The translations under genes and the position numbers were made by a program. Below the pieces are notes generated by a model. It had not been told where the DNA came from. It did not search any database and saw only the letters and a program-made list of their open reading frames with translations. A stretch of 22,438 nt of DNA, taken from a virus. The stretch's first letter is position 1, and every line of letters starts with the position of its first letter. Below are positions 4,803-21,916 of the stretch, in pieces. Location of the stretch: positions 1-22,438 of IMG/VR virus record IMGVR_UViG_3300032893_000288; one strand, given 5' to 3'.

Positions 4803-5303
4803 TTGGATCGATTAGACGAAATGATCGATGTTGAGAGACAAAAGTTAAATGTCGCAAAATATTTCAGAGCCATAAATCCTACTTTCATTCCAATTCATTT
4901 AACCGGCGGCATCGGTGATGTTGTCATGAGTATTGAAGCTTTAGAAGAGCTGCACAAATTCTATCAATTTGTGGTTTTTACTGAGCATCTAGAAGTTTTT
5001 GAATATTTTAGTGATCTTCCTGCCATGCGCGGCTTGCCCCTTATAAGCTGGCATTTAGAATTCAATACTATTGCTAGATTCAGATTCTCAGAGCAGTTTT
5101 CTGGTTTTTTAATGCCACAACAAAAAGAGCTTTTCTTAAAGCAGCAAGAATTGTTTCTTAAAGAGCCTGAACTCTATAGTCTTTGCTGTAATCATCCGCG
5201 TCAAGACTTTTTGCTATGCCAACATGCGCAAGAAAAGAATCTTAATAGGCGAAATTTTGTGCTTTATTCATTGGGGCTAATAAATGCAGATCACGATTCA
5301 TGA
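4803..5303 (+). CDS. Glycosyltransferase family 9-like protein, N-terminal half
   Basis: This 166-aa product starts at TTG (4803), seven bases after AAGGAG. The nearby ATG at 4798 runs into a stop after five codons. Residues 31-50 (IHLTGGIGDVVMSIEALEEL) match the first Rossmann loop of GT-B enzymes of the heptosyltransferase family (GT9), whose consensus is 'GGIGDxVMxxPAL', followed by VVFTEHLEVF-type strands. The protein stops at residue 166, about half the usual GT9 length of 320-350 aa. The C-terminal nucleotide-sugar half is supplied by the next ORF in another frame (+1), overlapping by 20 bp. Either the enzyme is a split two-subunit form or a frameshift has broken it. GT9 enzymes add heptose or related sugars to lipopolysaccharide or other glycans. 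The acceptor here is unknown. Confidence 0.7.
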   Translation: MDRLDEMIDVERQKLNVAKYFRAINPTFIPIHLTGGIGDVVMSIEALEELHKFYQFVVFTEHLEVFEYFSDLPAMRGLPLISWHLEFNTIARFRFSEQFSGFLMPQQKELFLKQQELFLKEPELYSLCCNHPRQDFLLCQHAQEKNLNRRNFVLYSLGLINADHDS

Positions 5304-5790
5304 TGGCTTTGATGTGAATAATAAATCCATTGTCCACGGGAGATGCACAAAGCAATGGAAATGGGATTATTGGAATAAACTTGTTCGATTGATCAAAAAT
5401 AGCTGCGATGCCACCATTATTCAACTGGGCGCTGTGACTGGCCGCGAAATCGATGGAGTGGATCAGTGTCTTTTGAATAAAACCACCATTCTTGAGGCCA
5501 TTAAAATACTTGAAAAATCTAAGTTTCATATTGATGGAGATTCTGGTCTTGTGCATGTTGCCACAAAATTAGGCATTCCATGCATTGTACTCTTTGGTCC
5601 AACGCCAGATTATTTTTATGGTTATAAAAAGAATGTGAACATCAGATCTAATGTATGTAAAGAAGCTTGCTTTTGGATTAAGGATAACTGGATGGATAAA
5701 TGCCCACTTGGCTATGCGACTCCAAAATGTCTGGATGCGATTACGGCAGACGATGTATTTGAGAAAATAAGAAAAAAAGGACTTTTGTAA
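5284..5790 (+). CDS. Glycosyltransferase family 9-like protein, C-terminal half
   Basis: This 168-aa product opens directly with the second Rossmann domain of a GT-B enzyme (ITIHDGFDV at residues 3-11, then KQWKWDYWNKLVRLI). It carries the GT9 donor-binding signature DGDSGLVHVATKLGIP (84-99) followed by VLFGPTP (102-108). The Cys-rich end (CKEAC, MDKCPLG, TPKCL at about 125-150) resembles the tail of GT9-like enzymes from bacterial surface-glycan loci. The ATG at 5284 follows an in-frame TAA immediately upstream, so translation in this frame cannot have begun earlier. The ribosome binding site (TTGGGGC) is weak, suggesting re-initiation after the N-terminal ORF, which ends 20 bp inside this one. 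The stop overlaps the ATG of the methyltransferase gene (TAATG). Together the two halves have every landmark of one complete enzyme. Confidence 0.75.
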   Translation: MQITIHDGFDVNNKSIVHGRCTKQWKWDYWNKLVRLIKNSCDATIIQLGAVTGREIDGVDQCLLNKTTILEAIKILEKSKFHIDGDSGLVHVATKLGIPCIVLFGPTPDYFYGYKKNVNIRSNVCKEACFWIKDNWMDKCPLGYATPKCLDAITADDVFEKIRKKGLL

Positions 5791-6446
5791 TGGAGATGGG
5801 ATCAGGACAACGATGGGGACCAATTAGCTATGCTCAACACGGTGACGATTTATTTATCATCAATCTTTTCGAACTTATCGGCATTGACAAGCCAAGTTAC
5901 TTGGATTTGGGAGCTAATCATCCTTTTCATATCAGCAACACTGCTTTGCTTTATCAACGAGGTTCCCGAGGCATAAATATAGACGCCAATCCACACGTAA
6001 TAAAGACATTTGATATTCATCGTCCAGGAGATATGAATATCAATATTGCCATAGGTTTTGGCAAAGAGATGACTTTCAAGATGTTTGATAAAACCAGTGG
6101 GCTTAATACTTTCAGTGAAAAAGAAGTAAAAAAGCTAGAAAAGCTTGGAATGTATGTAAATGATCAAATATCTATGCCGACCATAAGTTTGAATACTCTC
6201 ATTGAGAATCTGAATATTCCTTGGCCAGATTTTCTGAATGTTGATCTTGAGGGGATGGATTATGAAATAATGAAAAATACTCGAATTCCAAGACATGATG
6301 GACCGAGTATCATATGCATTGAAACAAGACGACACGAAACAAGACGCATGAAAGAAGTCGTATGTGGACATGGTTATGATTTATTGGCGCGTCTTGGCGA
6401 GAATCTGATCTTCGTTCGAAGCGATCAATACTTAAATTGTTTTTAA
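5790..6446 (+). CDS. FkbM-family SAM-dependent methyltransferase
   Basis: The 218-aa protein has the two defining stretches of FkbM-type methyltransferases. One is the SAM-binding motif I, YLDLGAN (37-43), followed by INIDANP (62-68, where the acidic residue normally binds the ribose of SAM). The other is the PDFLNVDLEGMDYEI block (146-160), which matches the family's 'DFLxIDVEGxE' signature. The length is normal for the family. The start ATG overlaps the upstream stop, so it is translationally coupled to the glycosyltransferase. FkbM enzymes O-methylate sugars or hydroxyl groups, and they often sit in glycan biosynthesis loci. The natural reading is methylation of a glycan added by the neighbouring GT9 enzyme. 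The target (capsid, fibre or host envelope) is not visible. A terminator follows immediately. Confidence 0.85.
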   Translation: MEMGSGQRWGPISYAQHGDDLFIINLFELIGIDKPSYLDLGANHPFHISNTALLYQRGSRGINIDANPHVIKTFDIHRPGDMNINIAIGFGKEMTFKMFDKTSGLNTFSEKEVKKLEKLGMYVNDQISMPTISLNTLIENLNIPWPDFLNVDLEGMDYEIMKNTRIPRHDGPSIICIETRRHETRRMKEVVCGHGYDLLARLGENLIFVRSDQYLNCF

Positions 6447-14960: not shown

Positions 14961-15037
14961 TGGCTGGCATGGCATGATTCGAACATGCGACCGTCGCCTT
15001 AACAGGGCGATGCTTCTACCAACTGAGCTACATGCCA
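14961..15037 (-). tRNA. tRNA-Asn (anticodon GTT)
   Basis: Read on the minus strand, the 77-nt sequence folds as a cloverleaf. The acceptor stem TGGCATG pairs with CATGCCA, followed by discriminator G and an encoded CCA end. The anticodon stem TCGCC/GGCGA encloses the loop CTGTTAA, giving anticodon GTT (Asn). The T arm GCATG/CATGC encloses TTCGAAT. The D-arm has only three clear pairs (GCT/AGC), with the conserved TAGCTCAGTTGGTAGA pattern, so it is slightly degenerate. It sits between TerS and a small unknown gene. It may supply extra Asn decoding for phage genes. No integrase is present in the window to make it an attachment site. Confidence 0.93.
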
Positions 15038-15363: not shown

Positions 15364-15757
15364 ATTCTTCTCCTTTGACTTTTAGGTTCTTCTTTTCTGC
15401 AATGATCTTTCCAATTTTTGTAAGATCATTTGTAACTGTCGAAATAGTTTTTGGCATGAGTAGATTGCCAATTCCTTTTTCTCTAAACTCTTCTTTGACA
15501 TAAATCCAATTTAAATGATCTTTGGTGTAAACACAATAGCCAAAGATGACTCGCATATCATCTTCAGCGCAAGCAATTCTGACTTTTGCATGCTTCAAAA
15601 TTTCTTTAATCTGGTGTGAGAGTTTTCTAAACACCATTTTCGGAGTGCCGGGCTTTTCAGTGACTGCCATATAGTAACTAGAGTTTCTCCAAGAAGAATA
15701 GATGAACGCCTCATCTGTATCTGGTTTGAATTCTCTAATTATCACGTTCACAGTCAT
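15341..15757 (-). CDS. GNAT-family acetyltransferase-like protein
   Basis: This 138-aa protein has the GNAT topology: an N-terminal IREFKPDTDEAFIYSSW beta-alpha start (7-23), then IACAEDDMRVIFGYCVY strands (61-77). The acetyl-CoA motif A follows: a beta-4 strand WIYVKEEFREKGIGNLL (84-100). Its REKGIG fits the R/Q-x-x-G-x-G/A pyrophosphate loop. GNATs transfer an acyl group from acyl-CoA to an amine. The substrate is unknown. It is at the short end for GNATs, and its C-terminal part after motif A is Lys-rich. The ATG at 15757 overlaps the end of the upstream gene by 23 bp and has no strong ribosome binding site. Phage GNATs can modify phage or host proteins. Confidence 0.75.
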   Translation of the reverse strand: MTVNVIIREFKPDTDEAFIYSSWRNSSYYMAVTEKPGTPKMVFRKLSHQIKEILKHAKVRIACAEDDMRVIFGYCVYTKDHLNWIYVKEEFREKGIGNLLMPKTISTVTNDLTKIGKIIAEKKNLKVKGEEYESGNYH

Positions 15758-16154
15758 AAAATTCTAACCATTCTAGGAGTCTTTCAATCACCTGATGCAC
15801 ACAGGTTTTTGATCTATTCACTTTAAATGCGATGAATCTCTCTGATTTTCCGTCAACATGCATATCCCAAATAATCTGAGCTTCATCTTTGGTTACGCTA
15901 TTAAAATGATTAGTAACGGTAGAGCAAATATCATCAAAAGACGCATGGCAAGAAAGATGGGAGACGCGCTCATAGTATTTTGAATTCTTGATTTGTTTTT
16001 GTCGCCCATATTGAGTAGCAAATCTAACGGAATGAAGTTCAAGTAAAGGTCTTGATTCAAGAGCGGTATTTTCAATGTCCTCAAAGCCTTCACTTTTAAG
16101 TCTTTCATACCATTTAATTTGTAGTTGTTTGTTCTGATGATTCAGAGGCACCAC
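15735..16154 (-). CDS. Putative helix-turn-helix regulatory protein
   Basis: The 139-aa product has a C-terminal region (about 90-130) that reads as a helix-turn-helix: DEAQIIWDMHVDGKSERFI then AFKVNRSKTCVHQVIERL. The form 'R-IA-KxNRSKTxVHxxI' is like the recognition part of sigma-region-4 or RinA-type late-gene activators. The N-terminal half (KWYERLKSEGFEDIEN) is helical and resembles small phage proteins of unknown role. A GTG start at 16154 is used because no ATG lies in frame before residue 98. It overlaps the end of the upstream gene by 41 bp, and its ribosome binding site is poor. It may regulate late transcription toward the structural genes. That is inference from the HTH and its position. 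Confidence 0.6.
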   Translation of the reverse strand: MVPLNHQNKQLQIKWYERLKSEGFEDIENTALESRPLLELHSVRFATQYGRQKQIKNSKYYERVSHLSCHASFDDICSTVTNHFNSVTKDEAQIIWDMHVDGKSERFIAFKVNRSKTCVHQVIERLLEWLEFYDCERDN

Positions 16155-16620: not shown

Positions 16621-16825
16621 ATTCTCCTTGTTTTTTTATTAAATTAGCCTCGGTAATTGTTTCAGCTAGAACTTTAATAGCTTTTTTTTTGCCAACAAGC
16701 GCAATTCCTTTTTTCAACTTCTCTTCAGCCCCGGCTTTAGTCCAAGCAAACATTAGGGTTTCTTTTTTGATGTGAGGAAAAACTTTTCTCAAGATCAGAA
16801 ATACTTCACGTTGATTTCGGTTCAT
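16571..16825 (-). CDS. Small basic protein of unknown function
   Basis: The 84-aa product is Lys-rich (about 15 Lys), mostly helical in appearance, starting NRNQREVFLILRKVFPHIKK and ending GEYDGNYSIDQARGITNS. It overlaps the preceding gene's stop by 20 bp and the next gene by 50 bp, the usual spacing in this tightly packed cluster. The ribosome binding site (AGAAG) is weak. There is no motif I recognise. Its basic charge would suit nucleic acid binding. Confidence 0.5.
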   Translation of the reverse strand: MNRNQREVFLILRKVFPHIKKETLMFAWTKAGAEEKLKKGIALVGKKKAIKVLAETITEANLIKKQGEYDGNYSIDQARGITNS

Positions 16826-17033
16826 TTGTTTTTTCTTCTAATGCACGCAGTTCTAATCCCAATTGATCCATGCGTTTTTTTAACTCACTAATCTCTTTAG
16901 GTAAAAGCTCAAGCAAATAAGCTTTATGTCCCCATTGAGCACAGAGTTTTGTATAGTCATCATTAATGGCTTTAGCATCTCTAACATTTTCCATAGAAAA
17001 GCCATTCTGATTGAAATGCTTATATCCTGGCAA
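16806..17033 (-). CDS. Small helical protein of unknown function
   Basis: The product (75 aa from the TTG at 17033, or 62 aa from an ATG at 16994) has a 'DAKAINDDYTKLCAQWGHKA' start and a C-terminal coiled-coil helix rich in Leu/Glu/Lys (LLPKEISELKKRMDQLGLEL). Neither start has a good ribosome binding site, and the frame stays open up to about 17133 without another canonical start codon. The gene's 5' end abuts the non-coding region 17034-17607, where its promoter would have to be. I give the TTG version with low confidence in the exact start. Confidence 0.5.
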   Translation of the reverse strand: MPGYKHFNQNGFSMENVRDAKAINDDYTKLCAQWGHKAYLLELLPKEISELKKRMDQLGLELRALEEKTNEPKST

Positions 17034-17097
17034 GGAAATATTTTCATGACTGATCGTATAAAGTGGGCTGGGGGATCTTGAAAATCCCCCGGAACCC

Positions 17098-17154
17098 TGA
17101 CAATATCTTGCGTGTATGGTAGTTAATACATACTATGACAATATGGTGCGTGTA
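17098..17154. repeat. Imperfect direct repeat at the candidate RNA promoter
   Basis: TGACAATATCTTGCGTGTA at 17098-17116 and TGACAATATGGTGCGTGTA at 17136-17154 match in 17 of 19 positions, with a 38-bp period. The first copy contains the -35-like TTGCGT, and the second overlaps the -10 box and probable transcription start. Two same-orientation copies spaced about 3.6 helical turns apart could be regulator-binding sites. They could also come from a duplication. Confidence 0.6.
17108..17136 (+). promoter_or_regulatory. Sigma-70-like promoter for the non-coding region
   Basis: TTGCGT (17108-17113) and TACTAT (17131-17136) are separated by exactly 17 bp, close to the consensus TTGACA/TATAAT. Initiation would be near 17143, just before the first hairpin of the candidate RNA, and no protein gene lies downstream on this strand. 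The match is good, but it is short and predicted only. Confidence 0.5.
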
Positions 17155-17547
17155 AAGTCAAAAAATCACGCGGTAGCCCTAAGCCCAATAAGCTTTGGCG
17201 TGGCAGAGAAGGAAAACCAAGGGGAGCTAGTGAACAATACTCGATCATACCGACAGCCTAGCTTAAAAGGGGATCTTCTCTTGGCCACAAGATATCTCTC
17301 TAAAAAAGGAAACTCTGTACGAGCCAGGGGGCTAACCATCCCCGAACGCTTCTTTGAGTATTTCTTTGCGTAGACTACCGATCTAACGGCGTGCCGCATA
17401 GCACGCAATTGGTGAGGGAGTTATCCTTATAGGAGAGAAAAGAATAGCACTTGGCACTATTACCTCAAATCCCTAGGTGGGTGGGTAAAAGAGTCGGTGG
17501 TATTTGTCTTAAGCCCGTCTTAATTTACTTTACTAAAGTATTTTTTT
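17143..17547 (+). ncRNA. Candidate large structured non-coding RNA, about 400 nt
   Basis: This stretch has no credible protein gene, is richer in G+C than its AT-rich flank, and is bounded by a promoter and an intrinsic terminator on the plus strand, opposite to all nearby genes. Local helices visible by eye are GCGTG/CACGC (17148-17152 with 17167-17171), CTTTGG/CCAAGG (17193-17198 with 17217-17222, one G-U), AGCTAG/CTAGCT (17225-17230 with 17258-17263), GGGG/CCCC (17327-17330 with 17340-17343), GCGTGC/GCACGC (17389-17394 with 17401-17406), AATAG/CTATT (17443-17447 with 17457-17461) and TGAGG/CCTCA (17413-17417 with 17463-17467). Such large ornate RNAs are known from phages (for example GOLLD and ROOL types), often near tRNAs. 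I cannot match this to either, and its length is shorter than both. The 5' end is set by the predicted promoter. Confidence 0.55.
17526..17547 (+). terminator. Intrinsic terminator of the candidate RNA
   Basis: TACTTT (17526-17531) pairs with AAAGTA (17535-17540) around an ACT loop, followed at once by seven T residues. The stem is AT-rich but complete. No protein gene on the plus strand ends nearby, so its most likely client is the non-coding RNA upstream. It is directly followed by a perfect 14-nt palindrome, TTATTAATTAATAA (17546-17559), in a very AT-rich segment that runs to about 17580. I see no further gene in 17548-17607. Confidence 0.6.
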
Positions 17548-17607
17548 ATTAATTAATAACCATTAAATAACTATAACTCTCTCACAAAGTAATCAGCCCG
17601 AAGGGGT

Positions 17608-17970
17608 CTATGAATCTACCTTGATCTTTGGGTTTAAGAACAATCTTAGAAGATCATCCAGTTTTAGACATGCATAAGTCTCAGATCTGTTTTTAGAGAA
17701 CACTAGCACTGGCGTGTGCTCGGTATTCAATGCATGAGACTCAGCCTGTTTAAGTGCTGCCCAGATATTGAGCTTCTCTTGGTTCTTGCATTCAAAAGTA
17801 AAGGGATAAAGATCTCTTGCAGCTTTGGATAGCTTTAAATCCTCTCCAGGGGCACCAGAAGAGGTCACAGTGATATCTGAGGGGTCAAGAGTAGGGCATG
17901 AGGCCAGAAGCTTACCTTGAAGCTCCTGGCAGAGTTTACGGCCTTTGGCTTTGGCATTGGAAGTTTTCAT
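17608..17970 (-). CDS. PD-(D/E)XK-family nuclease (Holliday-junction-resolvase-like)
   Basis: I start this at the ATG at 17970, which overlaps the upstream gene's TGA (ATGA). This gives 120 aa. An upstream in-frame start at 18006 would lie inside that gene. The residues fit a PD-(D/E)XK fold: a basic N-terminal helix (SNAKAKGRKLCQELQGKL), D44 in PGEDLKLS, then the E60-x-K62 in FTFECKNQEKL. The strand-helix pattern LNIWAALKQAESHA and the PVLVFSKN strand follow. The 'GED...ECKN' pattern is like small phage nucleases of the Holliday-junction-resolvase kind, which process branched DNA before packaging. It is encoded downstream of the secreted beta-helix gene and probably translated by coupling to it. 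The exact DNA substrate is not evident. Confidence 0.75.
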   Translation of the reverse strand: MKTSNAKAKGRKLCQELQGKLLASCPTLDPSDITVTSSGAPGEDLKLSKAARDLYPFTFECKNQEKLNIWAALKQAESHALNTEHTPVLVFSKNRSETYACLKLDDLLRLFLNPKIKVDS

Positions 17971-19373
17971 TGCATGATCCCCGGAGGAACCATATCCCAA
18001 CCCCAAGGAGATAAGACTTTAATCGCCTGAGGCCAGATCAATGTACAGTTGCTTGTAGTGAGATAAGGCTCAGGTGCTGGAGTGCCACTGTTTTGAATAC
18101 AGATATCAGCATTAATTCCTTGATTAGTGCCAATCGGGATTTTATTGTGCGTCAAAGTATTGTTTACATACGTGCATTGCTGACAATCTTGAATAAACAC
18201 ATCATCACTGGCTCCGGTGAAAGTGTTATTCATGGCAAGAAAGTATTTTAAACCATACTGTCCCCCATGCCCAGAATAGTAGTAAATGTAGGCAGTCTGA
18301 TCTGAGGGCTCACCACTTTGTGCCACCCATCCAAATGGGCCCAGGAATTGATTATGAAAAAGCTTGATGTTAATTGAGCCGCCCTTGAAATCAGATCCAA
18401 TCGGACCTTTAAGCACTTTATTATTTGCCACAATCGAGTTTGCCACGGCTACAAAATCAATTCCTTGCTTTTTTTCGCTCACCCCGAAATTATTCACAAG
18501 ATTCCCGTACACATTCAAATTTGTGCACTGAGAAGCTTTGATTCCATCTGAATAAGTGTTCTCTATCTTATTTCCCATGATGTTCATAAATCCGCATAGC
18601 TCTGTGTAGTTGGTGGGAGTGCCGTGTCCATAAGCATGAATTCCTCCCCCGTCAGCTTGCTCTGATTGAGCCACATACAAGCCAGAGATGGTGCCATTAT
18701 GGGCTGAGCCTTTAATTTGAATCGCATCAGCAGTGGCGTTTTTGATAATCACTGGCCAAGATGAATTGTCCGGATCAAAATTTGGATTTACCTTATGAAG
18801 CGTATCTTCCATTGCAATAATTGAGAGATTTTTATCCAAGCGAAAGCCGGCATAAGTACCTGGCAAAACTAAAACTTGGCCTCCAGCAGGAGCCGCGTTG
18901 ATGGCATCTGAGATAGTTTTATAAACTTTAGGCAGTCCCACAGATTGCAATCCATCATCATCCACCCACAAGGCTTGTGGACTTATCCAATTTGGAATCG
19001 TGAGCTTAAACCAAAATGAGTTAATGTATTTGCCAGTTGAATCATATCCATCAGCCTGCACCCGGTATGAACCCTGCATTAAAGTCCATGACCAATTAAA
19101 AGGAGAATTAGTGCTAGCTGACTGAAGTAGTATTTTGCCGTCCGGAGATTTTAGATCAAATCTCACTCGCTTGATGTTTGTATTGGTGAGCGCTTTAAAA
19201 TGCGCATTTGCTGGAATTTTTGTCATATCAAATGTATATGACGCACCATTTGTAAATGGCCCGTAACTTGTGGCCGTATCATTGATCTGATCACCATTGA
19301 TATCAATAAGACTAAGCCCAGTTATTTGAGCCTGCGCTGAGATAGAAATTAATAATAAAAATAAATATTTCAT
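17967..19373 (-). CDS. Secreted right-handed beta-helix protein (pectate-lyase-like) with signal peptide
   Basis: The 468-aa product begins with a Sec signal peptide: MKYLFLLLISISAQAQ, with a short basic N-end, a hydrophobic core, and likely signal-peptidase cleavage after AQA (residue 15). After it comes an Ig-like domain (about 20-127) with RVRFDLKSPDGK and GSYRVQADGYDSTGK. The linker (WVDDDG) leads to a right-handed beta-helix (about 150-430) that starts KVYKTISDAINAAPAGGQVL, the usual first coil of pectate-lyase-like folds, and continues with Asn/Gly-rich coils. Such folds serve as glycan lyases, adhesins or surface-bound enzymes. I see no assignable catalytic triad. A promoter lies just upstream, and GGAGAG precedes the ATG by five bases. 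A phage gene with an export signal is unusual and suggests an effect outside the cytoplasm. Confidence 0.75.
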   Translation of the reverse strand: MKYLFLLLISISAQAQITGLSLIDINGDQINDTATSYGPFTNGASYTFDMTKIPANAHFKALTNTNIKRVRFDLKSPDGKILLQSASTNSPFNWSWTLMQGSYRVQADGYDSTGKYINSFWFKLTIPNWISPQALWVDDDGLQSVGLPKVYKTISDAINAAPAGGQVLVLPGTYAGFRLDKNLSIIAMEDTLHKVNPNFDPDNSSWPVIIKNATADAIQIKGSAHNGTISGLYVAQSEQADGGGIHAYGHGTPTNYTELCGFMNIMGNKIENTYSDGIKASQCTNLNVYGNLVNNFGVSEKKQGIDFVAVANSIVANNKVLKGPIGSDFKGGSINIKLFHNQFLGPFGWVAQSGEPSDQTAYIYYYSGHGGQYGLKYFLAMNNTFTGASDDVFIQDCQQCTYVNNTLTHNKIPIGTNQGINADICIQNSGTPAPEPYLTTSNCTLIWPQAIKVLSPWGWDMVPPGIMQ

Positions 19374-19448: not shown

Positions 19449-19742
19449 TCATTTCTCCTCCAAAGATTTGAGCCATTCTTCGGCCATGGGTTTATAATGG
19501 TCAAATTCCTCACAAAACTCTTCTGTGGCTATCATTGCTAGAATAAATTTCGCCCGCTCTAGTTCGATTTGCAGCGCTTCATAGGCAGAATATTCGATGA
19601 CATGAACCTTACCATATTTCTTGAAATCTTTTTCAATAAGCTTTAAATCTGTTGATACAATTACTTGTCCCCATTCGTCTTCATATTCAGAAACATTTTG
19701 TATCCACCATTCTCTTATCTTCTCATTTTTTGACAAAGTCAT
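19449..19742 (-). CDS. Small acidic protein of unknown function
   Basis: This 97-aa protein is rich in Glu, Trp and Lys. It begins TLSKNEKIREWWIQNVSEYE and has helices such as ALQIELERAKFILAMIATEE near residues 56-75. Its ATG at 19742 overlaps the stop of the zinc-ribbon gene (ATGA), so the two are translated as a coupled pair, possibly partners. There is no recognisable domain. It is followed by a promoter-containing gap before the secreted beta-helix gene. Confidence 0.55.
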   Translation of the reverse strand: MTLSKNEKIREWWIQNVSEYEDEWGQVIVSTDLKLIEKDFKKYGKVHVIEYSAYEALQIELERAKFILAMIATEEFCEEFDHYKPMAEEWLKSLEEK

Positions 19743-19930
19743 AGAGTCTTTTCATTCTCTTTGATTTTTGGATACGGAAAGAAATCTTCGCATGACCAGT
19801 CATCGGTGAGAACCTCTCCATGCTTTATACATTGTCCGATTACTTCAGTAATAGAGTCATCGAATTCATTAAAGATGCAGTAAATATTCTTAAGGAACTT
19901 GCCACATATCGGGCACTTCATGGCTCTCAT
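19739..19930 (-). CDS. Small cysteine-rich (zinc-ribbon-like) protein
   Basis: A 63-aa product starting at the ATG at 19930, eight bases after GGAG. A TTG at 19948 is in frame but lies before that ribosome binding site. Cysteines at C6-x2-C9 (KCPICGK), C18, C34 followed by H37 (CIKHG) and C47 form a zinc-ribbon-like set, although C18 and C47 leave the ligand choice open. Such small proteins often bind nucleic acid or regulate transcription. Directly upstream is the foldable non-coding stretch ending in a T-run, which may form part of this gene's leader. It is coupled to the downstream 97-aa protein. Confidence 0.6.
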   Translation of the reverse strand: MRAMKCPICGKFLKNIYCIFNEFDDSITEVIGQCIKHGEVLTDDWSCEDFFPYPKIKENEKTL

Positions 19931-19946: not shown

Positions 19947-20150
19947 AAAAAGTGGGCTTTCAGCTTAGGCCACGCGCGACTCTGGCCTCATCGTCGAACA
20001 TAATACCGTTGTTCTAGACCATCTCGGTAAAGATGTGCGTGTCTCCAGTGGTTCAGCTTCAGACCTCTTTAGGCCCTATGCCACAGTCACAAGTTAATTA
20101 CTCCTGTTACCTGCCACAGCTTCCCACGCCGCCAAGCTTACTTGCCCATG
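19947..20150 (-). ncRNA. Candidate structured RNA or leader, about 200 nt
   Basis: This stretch lies directly after the stop of one gene and before the ribosome binding site of the zinc-ribbon gene, with no ORF of its own. On the minus strand its two ends pair: TGGGC with GCCCA (plus-strand positions 20144-20148 and 19953-19957), followed by AAGCT with AGCTT (20134-20138 and 19962-19966) and GCC with GGC (20131-20133 and 19968-19970) past a bulged A. Inside are CATCT/AGATG (20020-20024 with 20031-20035) and GAACA/TGTTC (19996-20000 with 20010-20014). The closing stem is followed by C then TTTTT. The GGC at 19968-19970 can instead join GGCCA/TGGCC (19968-19972 with 19983-19987), an alternative helix. 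The GC content is above the neighbours. It could be a riboswitch-like leader or an independent RNA. I know of no matching class. Confidence 0.45.
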
Positions 20151-20666
20151 TCACTTCAATTTCCCTTTGCGCTCAAGTAAAGACTTCGTCTTTCTCAGCA
20201 CGCTCAAAAACTTGCTCTCATAAAGACCTTTTTCATTTGATGGATCTTTTTTTAGATTGAACTCTTGATATGACGGCAATTTTTGTGTCATCTCCCAACA
20301 ATCATGAAGTTCTTGTAGAATTGATTCAGCATTTTCCTCTGTTATCGGCTCGATTTTGATGAGCAAAGCGCGTTTACTTGGATTTTCCTCAGGTCCGCAT
20401 CCCTCATACCATCCACCCCAGTTCTTATGACTAACGACTTCGTTAGCATTCTCAAACAATGGCTTGATTTCACGGTCATACCATGAATCAAAATCGCCAG
20501 ATAATATAATATCTCCTGAACCTCCAATTCCATGATTTGGAAAAAGAATAGAATAGCTAGCTTTAATAAATTTTGGCTTAGGTGGCATCCATTTCATTTT
20601 ATTATTCCAATCATTATAAAATTCCCAATCGTCATAGAATTCATGGTCGTCCACTTGATTATTCAT
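20151..20666 (-). CDS. Protein of unknown function, acidic and aromatic N-terminus
   Basis: A 171-aa product from the ATG at 20666, or 178 aa from a GTG at 20687. I choose the ATG since it overlaps the upstream zinc-finger gene's stop by 8 bp, but neither start has a good ribosome binding site. The N-terminus is very rich in Asp/Glu/Trp/Tyr (DDHEFYDDWEFYNDWN). A middle GIGGSGDIILSGDFDSW is followed by WGGWYEGCGPEENPSKRA, and the C-terminus is a basic helix (LSVLRKTKSLLERKGKLK). I do not recognise the family. The acidic, aromatic first part resembles DNA-mimic-type sequence, which is only a composition-based remark. Confidence 0.5.
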   Translation of the reverse strand: MNNQVDDHEFYDDWEFYNDWNNKMKWMPPKPKFIKASYSILFPNHGIGGSGDIILSGDFDSWYDREIKPLFENANEVVSHKNWGGWYEGCGPEENPSKRALLIKIEPITEENAESILQELHDCWEMTQKLPSYQEFNLKKDPSNEKGLYESKFLSVLRKTKSLLERKGKLK

Positions 20667-20782: not shown

Positions 20783-21013
20783 TTACGTAACAATTTTATT
20801 TCTCGACTCAATGGACGAGATGTCTTTGAGTGCGGTCCCCCCGCCACAATTCCCCCTCAGCTTTTCAATATGCTCTCTTAGTTGTTTATAGGCTTCAGAT
20901 GACCAATCCACAAATCTTGCCTCTCCCAAAGCAGAATGAATGAATTTAATCTCTCCATCGGTGATTTCAATCTCAAATCCAGCGGCCATAAGATGCTTAT
21001 ATAGAAAGTTCAT
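20783..21013 (-). CDS. Small protein of unknown function
   Basis: This 76-aa product has a helical YKHLMAAGFEIEITDGEIKF start and a C-terminal EHIEKLRGNCGGGTALKD. I choose the ATG at 21013, which overlaps the stop of the upstream gene (ATGA). The ATG at 21019 is two codons earlier and equally possible. It has no strong ribosome binding site, in keeping with translational coupling. I see no domain that I can name. Confidence 0.5.
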   Translation of the reverse strand: MNFLYKHLMAAGFEIEITDGEIKFIHSALGEARFVDWSSEAYKQLREHIEKLRGNCGGGTALKDISSIESRNKIVT

Positions 21014-21732
21014 TTGCATTCTTTTAAAAGCTGTAAAAGCTTATTCGCAAATTTTGTATAAGCAGCGGACCAGGCAGCGGAGCTGGCAGCGGACCAGGCA
21101 GCGAATCTGGCAGCGAATCTGGCAGCGGACCAGGCAGCGAATCTGGCAGCGGACTCGGCAGCGGAGCTGGCAGCGGACTCGGCAGCGGACTCGGCAGCGG
21201 AGCTGGCAGCGGACTCGGCAGTGGACTCGGCAGCGAATCTGGCAGCGAATCTGGCAGCGGACCAGGCAGCGGACCAGGCAGCGGACTCGGCAGTGGACTT
21301 GGCAAGAGACGGTCCTTTAGGATATTTTTCCCATAGCTCAATACATTTATCGATTGCTGATTTGCATTCTGGATATTTTGAATGATCGAAATTATCAAAA
21401 TTAGATTTCAAAATGAAAATTACAAATGGTGCTTTGATTTTATTTAAATCGGCACCTATATTAATTGTAGATAAAAACTTTACCGGCCAAAGTTTAGCTT
21501 CATTAGAAGGTAATTGTTCAAAAATAGCATCTTCAACTAGAGCTAACCATTCTGGTATACCAAGCTCTTCTTCATAAGAAGAATGATTTGATGAATGGAT
21601 CGTGCATCCAACAGCACATCCTTTACCATTTTCCCAATAGACACCTTTTACAATTTCATCTGCTTTAGCATGTGCTTTAATGCGATTTAGATATTTTTGT
21701 TTGATTTTTTCATCATTATGAAATGCTTGCAT
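21010..21732 (-). CDS. Phage protein with Ala-rich four-residue tandem repeats
   Basis: I start this 240-aa protein at the ATG at 21732, seven bases after GAGG. The longer reading to 21819 would extend through the upstream gene. The N-terminal half has a '[20 protein letters not shown]' helix and the block [20 protein letters not shown] (about 34-53), then [21 protein letters not shown] recognise this opening from a phage protein family that also ends in 'AAWSAAR' repeats, but I cannot name its function. From about residue 143 to 225 there are roughly twenty units of four residues such as [12 protein letters not shown] and SAAE, with a final helix [10 protein letters not shown]. The repeat-encoding DNA is itself a 12-bp tandem array. 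The role is unknown. Confidence 0.75.
21062..21301. repeat. Twenty-copy 12-bp tandem repeat inside a coding region
   Basis: Twenty consecutive 12-bp units begin GCAGCGGA or GCAGCGAA (two begin GCAGTGGA) and end in a few variants (CCAG, GCTG, CTCG, TCTG, CTTG). They are in phase with the coding frame, giving four-residue repeats. The array keeps open frames on both strands by periodicity alone, so ORFs called elsewhere over it are artefacts. Such arrays change length readily by slipped-strand replication or recombination. Confidence 0.95.
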
Positions 21733-21916
21733 TATCAACCTCTTCTGGATCTGGAATAAAAACTCTTTCCATTTCAACAAGCTCAATAAGCTGTCGAATG
21801 TCCCAAAGAACACAATCAAACCAATTTAATAATTCAAGATCAGAAGCAGTTCTTTTTTCTTTGAGCTGCTCTATTAAAGCCTGTCGTTGTTGAATGTAGT
21901 CTATGACTCTATTCAT
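21716..21916 (-). CDS. Small helical protein of unknown function
   Basis: A 66-aa product from the ATG at 21916, four bases after the preceding stop with AGGA seven bases upstream. It is helical throughout (VIDYIQQRQALIEQLKEKR, then LELLNWFDCVLWDIRQLIE) and has an acidic C-terminus. It overlaps the repeat-protein gene by 17 bp. No family is recognised. It may be a partner of one of its neighbours. Confidence 0.55.
   Translation of the reverse strand: MNRVIDYIQQRQALIEQLKEKRTASDLELLNWFDCVLWDIRQLIELVEMERVFIPDPEEVDNASIS

Follow-up and report, generated by a model that had tools for sequence, protein, structure and literature searches.

A candidate structured RNA in the longest non-coding gap of a soil-type phage genome, and two covarying RNA families in this phage and its relatives

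Introduction

A functional structured RNA may be encoded on the plus strand (positions 17143-17547) within the longest non-coding gap found in a phage genome of soil type. We regard this as a plausible but unproven orphan, with a chance a little short of even. The window, that is the whole stretch of DNA analysed, is a complete IMG/VR virus record of 22,438 bases. The phage in the window and its relatives carry two covarying RNA families without a match in Rfam, denoted here A and E. Family A comprises RNAs of about 120-240 nt, of which 30 copies from diverse phage contigs were aligned, and family E comprises intergenic RNAs of about 200-400 nt in four terminase-related phages; covariation is strong in both. 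The large RNAs of phages form a small group about which little is understood, and the candidate, if real, would add an RNA class.

Genomic setting and coding content of the gap

The minus strand carries most genes of the window, including the terminase, portal-like, capsid and tail genes and small early-type genes. The candidate had been described as lying on the strand opposite to all its neighbours, which is true of the immediate neighbours but not of all genes, since plus-strand ORFs lie at 4803-6446. These are three ORFs between the minus-strand capsid and tail genes, sugar-transferase-like and methyltransferase-like by eye only, and the first two overlap and may be a single broken or frameshifted gene. 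The gap, its two flanking genes and the tRNA gene of a shorter gap are as follows.

17034-17607: non-coding gap that separates the RusA-like/PDDEXK gene from the first small gene in the packaging/structural run
Ending at 17608, minus strand: gap-flanking gene for a RusA-like/PDDEXK endonuclease (phrog_244, PF24608)
16806-17033, minus strand: gap-flanking gene of 75 residues, which starts at 17033 and opens the run towards terminase
14961-15037, minus strand: tRNA-Asn (GTT), occupying most of a 121-bp gap

At 574 bp the gap is the longest in the window, the next being 220, 133, 121 and 75 bp, and two of these next-longest gaps house RNA genes, namely the tRNA-Asn and an A-family RNA. ARAGORN found neither a tRNA nor a tmRNA in the gap itself. 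The G+C content of the candidate, said in the first-pass annotation to exceed that of its surroundings, is higher than upstream (0.44-0.49 at 17100-17500, against 0.34-0.42), but values of 0.47-0.49 are seen again at 17700-18100. In the gene run after the candidate, the product of 15735-16154 (minus strand) has a weak, below-cutoff likeness to the phage antitermination protein Q (Pfam E 0.0014).

The gap indeed holds no credible protein gene, as had been claimed: no frame is coding by codon score, and a six-frame read-through gave no PHROG and a single sub-threshold Pfam match (E 0.17). A short unusual protein, encoded by an 85-codon plus-strand ORF (17116-17373) or an 80-codon minus-strand ORF (17166-17408), is hard to credit. 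Both frames are open, and ORFs of at least 85 codons arise in only about 4.5% of simulated sequences, but their codon scores are negative (-0.04 and -0.18 respectively, against +0.10 to +0.29 for the genes of the window), they have no match in Pfam or PHROG, by tblastn in phages or in IMG/VR pattern scans, and no Shine-Dalgarno sequence was seen ahead of the plus-strand one. That the gap is the non-coding remnant of foreign DNA, or of a gene that has decayed or was lost recently, is improbable, though less so. Such an origin would fit the complete lack of relatives, the near-open plus frame interrupted by two stops, and the fact that the region is missing at the syntenic place in relatives; however, codon scores are non-coding in all frames, and the read-through gave no more than the sub-threshold Pfam match mentioned above.

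Repeat, promoter-like and terminator-like sequences

The repeat, promoter-like and terminator-like sites near the two ends of the candidate are listed here.

17098-17116, plus strand: direct repeat copy 1, TGACAATATCTTGCGTGTA
17136-17154, plus strand: direct repeat copy 2, TGACAATATGGTGCGTGTA, 17/19 identical to copy 1, at 38-bp spacing
17108-17136, plus strand: weak promoter-like sequence, TTGCGT (17108-17113), 17-bp spacer, TACTAT (17131-17136), with 7/12 consensus bases
17132-17161, minus strand: promoter-like sequence, TTGACT, 18-bp spacer, CATAGT, with TG before the -10 (extended -10), with 9/12 consensus bases, not above chance as a scan result
17526-17547, plus strand: weak terminator-like stem UACUUU/AAAGUA followed by T7 (-1.6 kcal/mol)

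The 19-bp direct repeat, which was absent from the first-pass annotation, is the strongest sequence feature of the promoter-like area, and no further copy occurs in the window at up to three mismatches. Its position beside the late operon suggests a regulatory role for part of the gap. The promoter and terminator that had been assigned to the candidate exist as sequences, and both are weaker than the scan thresholds. The TTGCGT/TACTAT pair with its 17-bp spacer exists, but it was not listed by the promoter scan and at 7/12 is not above chance; likewise the T7 run is present at 17541-17547, but the stem before it has six base pairs, with one G-C pair, falls below the scan threshold and is likewise not above chance. 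The minus-strand extended -10 site (17161-17132) overlaps the proposed plus-strand promoter and reads into the gene at 16806-17033. A promoter of the T7 RNA polymerase type (TAATAC..ACTAT) was considered and rejected, the spacing being wrong and a second copy lacking in the window.

We propose that the packaging/structural run would begin with a regulatory segment, 17098-17161, which has the 19-bp repeat and weak promoter-like sequences in both directions. It is possible, though on the unlikely side, that the gap holds nothing else, i.e. that it is a late promoter/operator region (19-bp repeats, minus-strand extended -10) plus spacer, from which no stable RNA is made. The repeat pair overlies the promoter-like sequence, the structural run begins with the gene that follows the gap, at a place where relatives change strand, and the fold energy of the candidate is indistinguishable from that of a coding control. 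Phage late-promoter/operator regions are similar to the gap in their place upstream of a structural run, their direct repeats and their promoter-like sites, but the gap has about 390 bp of extra non-coding sequence. These 390 bp past the repeats would make an unusually long spacer for this genome, and they are fairly rich in G+C and fold better on one strand only.

Predicted fold of the candidate

The predicted elements of the candidate RNA are given below, with pairing probabilities (P).

17143-17515, plus strand: candidate structured RNA, main folded part (MFE z -1.7 to -2.0; 3/150 and 5/100 shuffles)
17152-17158, plus strand: 5' arm of a predicted end-closing helix, GUAAAGU (P 0.98 in the 17143-17547 fold, 0.69 with flanks)
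17527-17533, plus strand: 3' arm of the same helix, ACUUUAC, overlapping the putative terminator stem
17200-17288, plus strand: predicted long arm, GUGGC/GCCAC, AGAGAAGG/UCUUCUCU and GAGCUAG/CUAGCUU (P 0.91-0.99)
17389-17406, plus strand: predicted hairpin, GCGUGC-CGCAUA-GCACGC (P 1.0)

On the plus strand the predicted fold is more stable than 92-98% of shuffles. For 17140-17550 the z score is -1.91 (2/100 dinucleotide shuffles), and for 17143-17547 it is -1.5 (12/150 dinucleotide shuffles) or -1.8 (5/100). The predicted helices persist under moderate changes of the boundaries. The pairing of 17152-17158 with 17527-17533 competes with the proposed terminator stem. At least seven local helices had been reported for the candidate; this count did not hold up, since the MFE fold has 3-4 hairpin helices (of at least 4 pairs), against 4.4-4.9 in shuffles.

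The controls limit what can be read from these values. The A-family RNA of the window has a z of -1.8 to -1.9 and four E RNAs have -0.8 to -1.0, while a coding control (from 12500) reaches -1.3 to -2.0, about as good as the candidate. The modelled fold does not surpass both the proven RNAs and the coding control, so it fits a structured RNA without demonstrating one.

The two strands differ in their folding. The minus strand of the candidate region as a whole is ordinary (z -0.4 to -0.7), which speaks against a cis-acting structured element on that strand, either at the 3' end of the RusA-like transcript or as a leader of the late operon. Such an element would suit the flanking genes, all of which are on the minus strand, and the arm at 17197-17296, which folds equally on both strands (z -2.3 and -2.5); we give it a small chance, below that of a decayed gene.

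Returning to a plus-strand RNA, we suggest that about 17143-17515/17547 would encode a phage-specific untranslated RNA, made divergently from the structural genes. Its ends would be paired, and its fold would comprise a long arm, hairpins and a multi-branch domain; it may act in trans during infection.

Searches for relatives of the candidate

None of the 4227 families of Rfam 15, which include ROOL, GOLLD, group I and II introns, 6S, RNase P and tmRNA, matched the gap, either at gathering thresholds or at E values up to 10, in agreement with the failure to match it to a known RNA in the first-pass annotation. The same result led us to reject a group I or group II intron. Collecting homologues by nucleotide search, which had been proposed as a check, was unsuccessful, as blastn in phage and plasmid collections gave nothing or chance matches. 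A scan of IMG/VR with the repeat motif returned three stretches, all chance matches, and translated-pattern scans for both halves of the candidate in IMG/VR and GTDB contigs yielded none that was confirmed. The complete records of 50 terminase relatives share just chance matches of 14-18 nt with the candidate, and in the long non-coding gaps of relatives, taken on both strands, the best z of 2.65 is below the top of the shuffle control (3.59). At the syntenic place in the closest terminase relatives that have the region, L083 and L085 (71% and 63% terminase identity), there is other sequence and no such RNA.

A divergent member of family E had been suspected by eye because GGCCAC, GAAAC, ACGAGCC, CTACC, a hairpin and CAATT occur in the order seen in E. 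This was dropped after an alignment test and a covariance model: in pairwise alignments of the candidate with E RNAs, 66-387 of 400 dinucleotide shuffles reach the score, and the best match to the E model (R1) is 2.4 bits over 14 nt with filters off, which is noise. A likeness by eye to family A (GCGTG..AAAG..CACGCGG, GAGTCG) fails in the A model (R2), where the best score with filters off is 4.9 bits on the wrong strand and at most 3.2 bits on the plus strand. At the sensitivity used, these sequence comparisons indicate that 17098-17547 belongs to neither E nor A.

The reading of the candidate as an orphan RNA is thus partly supported. In its favour are the non-coding nature of the gap, the lack of an Rfam match, a plus-strand fold at least as good as those of the proven A and E RNAs, the great length of the gap in a compact genome where two of the next-longest gaps house RNA genes, and the presence of E RNAs in the clade. 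Against it are the failure to find a homologue, the lack of a match to E or A, the weak promoter and terminator, a coding control that folds alike, and the absence of the RNA in L083 and L085. Tentatively, and with roughly one chance in three, 17143-17547 (plus strand) may be the sole known member of a further class of phage RNAs of about 400 nt, apart from GOLLD, ROOL, E and A, and placed divergently at an early/late junction. If so, each phage of the clade would tend to carry its own fast-changing structured RNAs.

Family E RNAs in related phages

The closest model for the candidate, by analogy, would be the unrelated E-family RNAs of sister phages. Four members were found.

L145, 1679-1885, minus strand
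L169, 5846-6042, plus strand
L152, 2558-2788, plus strand
L180, 496-697, minus strand; this fourth member is that of the contig of L085, read in L180

The members have a common core, AAGAGCCC-N-TGGCGnnGGGGG, and score 131-194 bits with their own model and z 3.6-20.6 in alignments to each other. In alignment A2, 85% of cells are paired and 17 of 36 pairs have two-sided changes; the covariation score was reached by no shuffle, and sliding the partners destroys the covariation. These figures are biased in favour of the structure, because it came from the same four sequences. Scanning IMG/VR with the E pattern gave nine stretches, namely the four members and five that look like coding or chance matches. 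No Rfam match at gathering threshold was found in the scanned A- or E-bearing records L169, L145, L114 and L152.

E RNAs sit close to junctions where gene blocks of opposite orientation meet. The candidate is similar to them in its phage clade, its size of a few hundred nt, its intergenic place, its lack of an Rfam match and its position near such junctions. However, E RNAs covary and are found by their own model, whereas the candidate, as described above, scores as noise and aligns with them no better than shuffles do.

Family A RNAs and the member in the window

The A-family RNA of the window is a solid result, belonging to a covarying phage family that is absent from Rfam 15 by these searches.

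19962-20140, minus strand: A-family RNA of the window (67.6 bits, E 4.5e-14, with model R2 built without the window sequence)

It lies about 2.4 kb from the candidate gap, within a 220-bp gap bounded by the gene that ends at 20151 and by the start codon that comes next on the minus strand, and is followed by U5, a Shine-Dalgarno sequence and the ATG of the gene at about 19739-19930. It has no match in Rfam at E values up to 10. Helices P1, P2, P3 and a 3' hairpin are conserved with covariation in the family and are present in the window member.

In alignment A4 (23 sequences), 95.9% of cells are paired, and two-sided changes number 113, compared with 30.7 in shuffles. All 11 pairs of helix P1 and the 3' hairpin, which are outside the search pattern, show two-sided changes. 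After refitting with seven more copies, which leans the alignment towards the model, 97.8% of cells are paired, and two-sided changes rise to 161, compared with 41.9 in shuffles. Of the 29 stretches returned by a second pattern scan, about two dozen are true members by inspection.

A T run and, after it, a start codon also come next to many other A members on their downstream side, and the downstream genes, read by eye, are of many kinds. Phage records with an A RNA have one to three copies, with tandem pairs in several cases; in G059, G065, G055 and G061 the two copies are about 20-80 nt apart, and the second is often much diverged. No A RNA was found in 299 genomes from the phylum of one host MAG, in a search run without a positive control. 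In the open-licence literature on phage RNA families and on GOLLD/ROOL-type RNAs no matching description surfaced, and an earlier description is possible.

Family A occurs in diverse uncultivated phages just upstream of various genes. Its role, as a leader element or a free RNA, is directly testable because there is a member in the window, copies number one to three per genome and they lie just upstream of phage genes. The candidate resembles the A-family RNA in being in the window, in its predicted end-closing helix and in its intergenic place; A RNAs, however, are shorter and usually come immediately before a gene of their own strand, and their model does not match the candidate.

ROOL and GOLLD are large structured RNAs that often occur in phages (PMC12286853). 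Compared from its one sequence, the candidate is shorter than either and has no match to them in Rfam at E values up to 10.

Other elements in the window and in other phage records

Just past the terminase gene, the following records have a conserved element of about 80 nt in an intergenic position (75-88% identity), which is inverted in some phages.

L094, 5853-6089
L102, 10278-10610
L106, 2373-2718
L122, 5923-6228
L131, 6780-7115

A 571-nt non-coding stretch in another record (L126, 600-1170, minus strand) has a very stable predicted fold of -189.7 kcal/mol, and is neither A nor E by the models. In the window, 21010-21819 (minus strand) encodes a protein with a long repeated tail rich in Ala, Trp, Arg and Phe, which has relatives of about 60% identity in L120 and L130.
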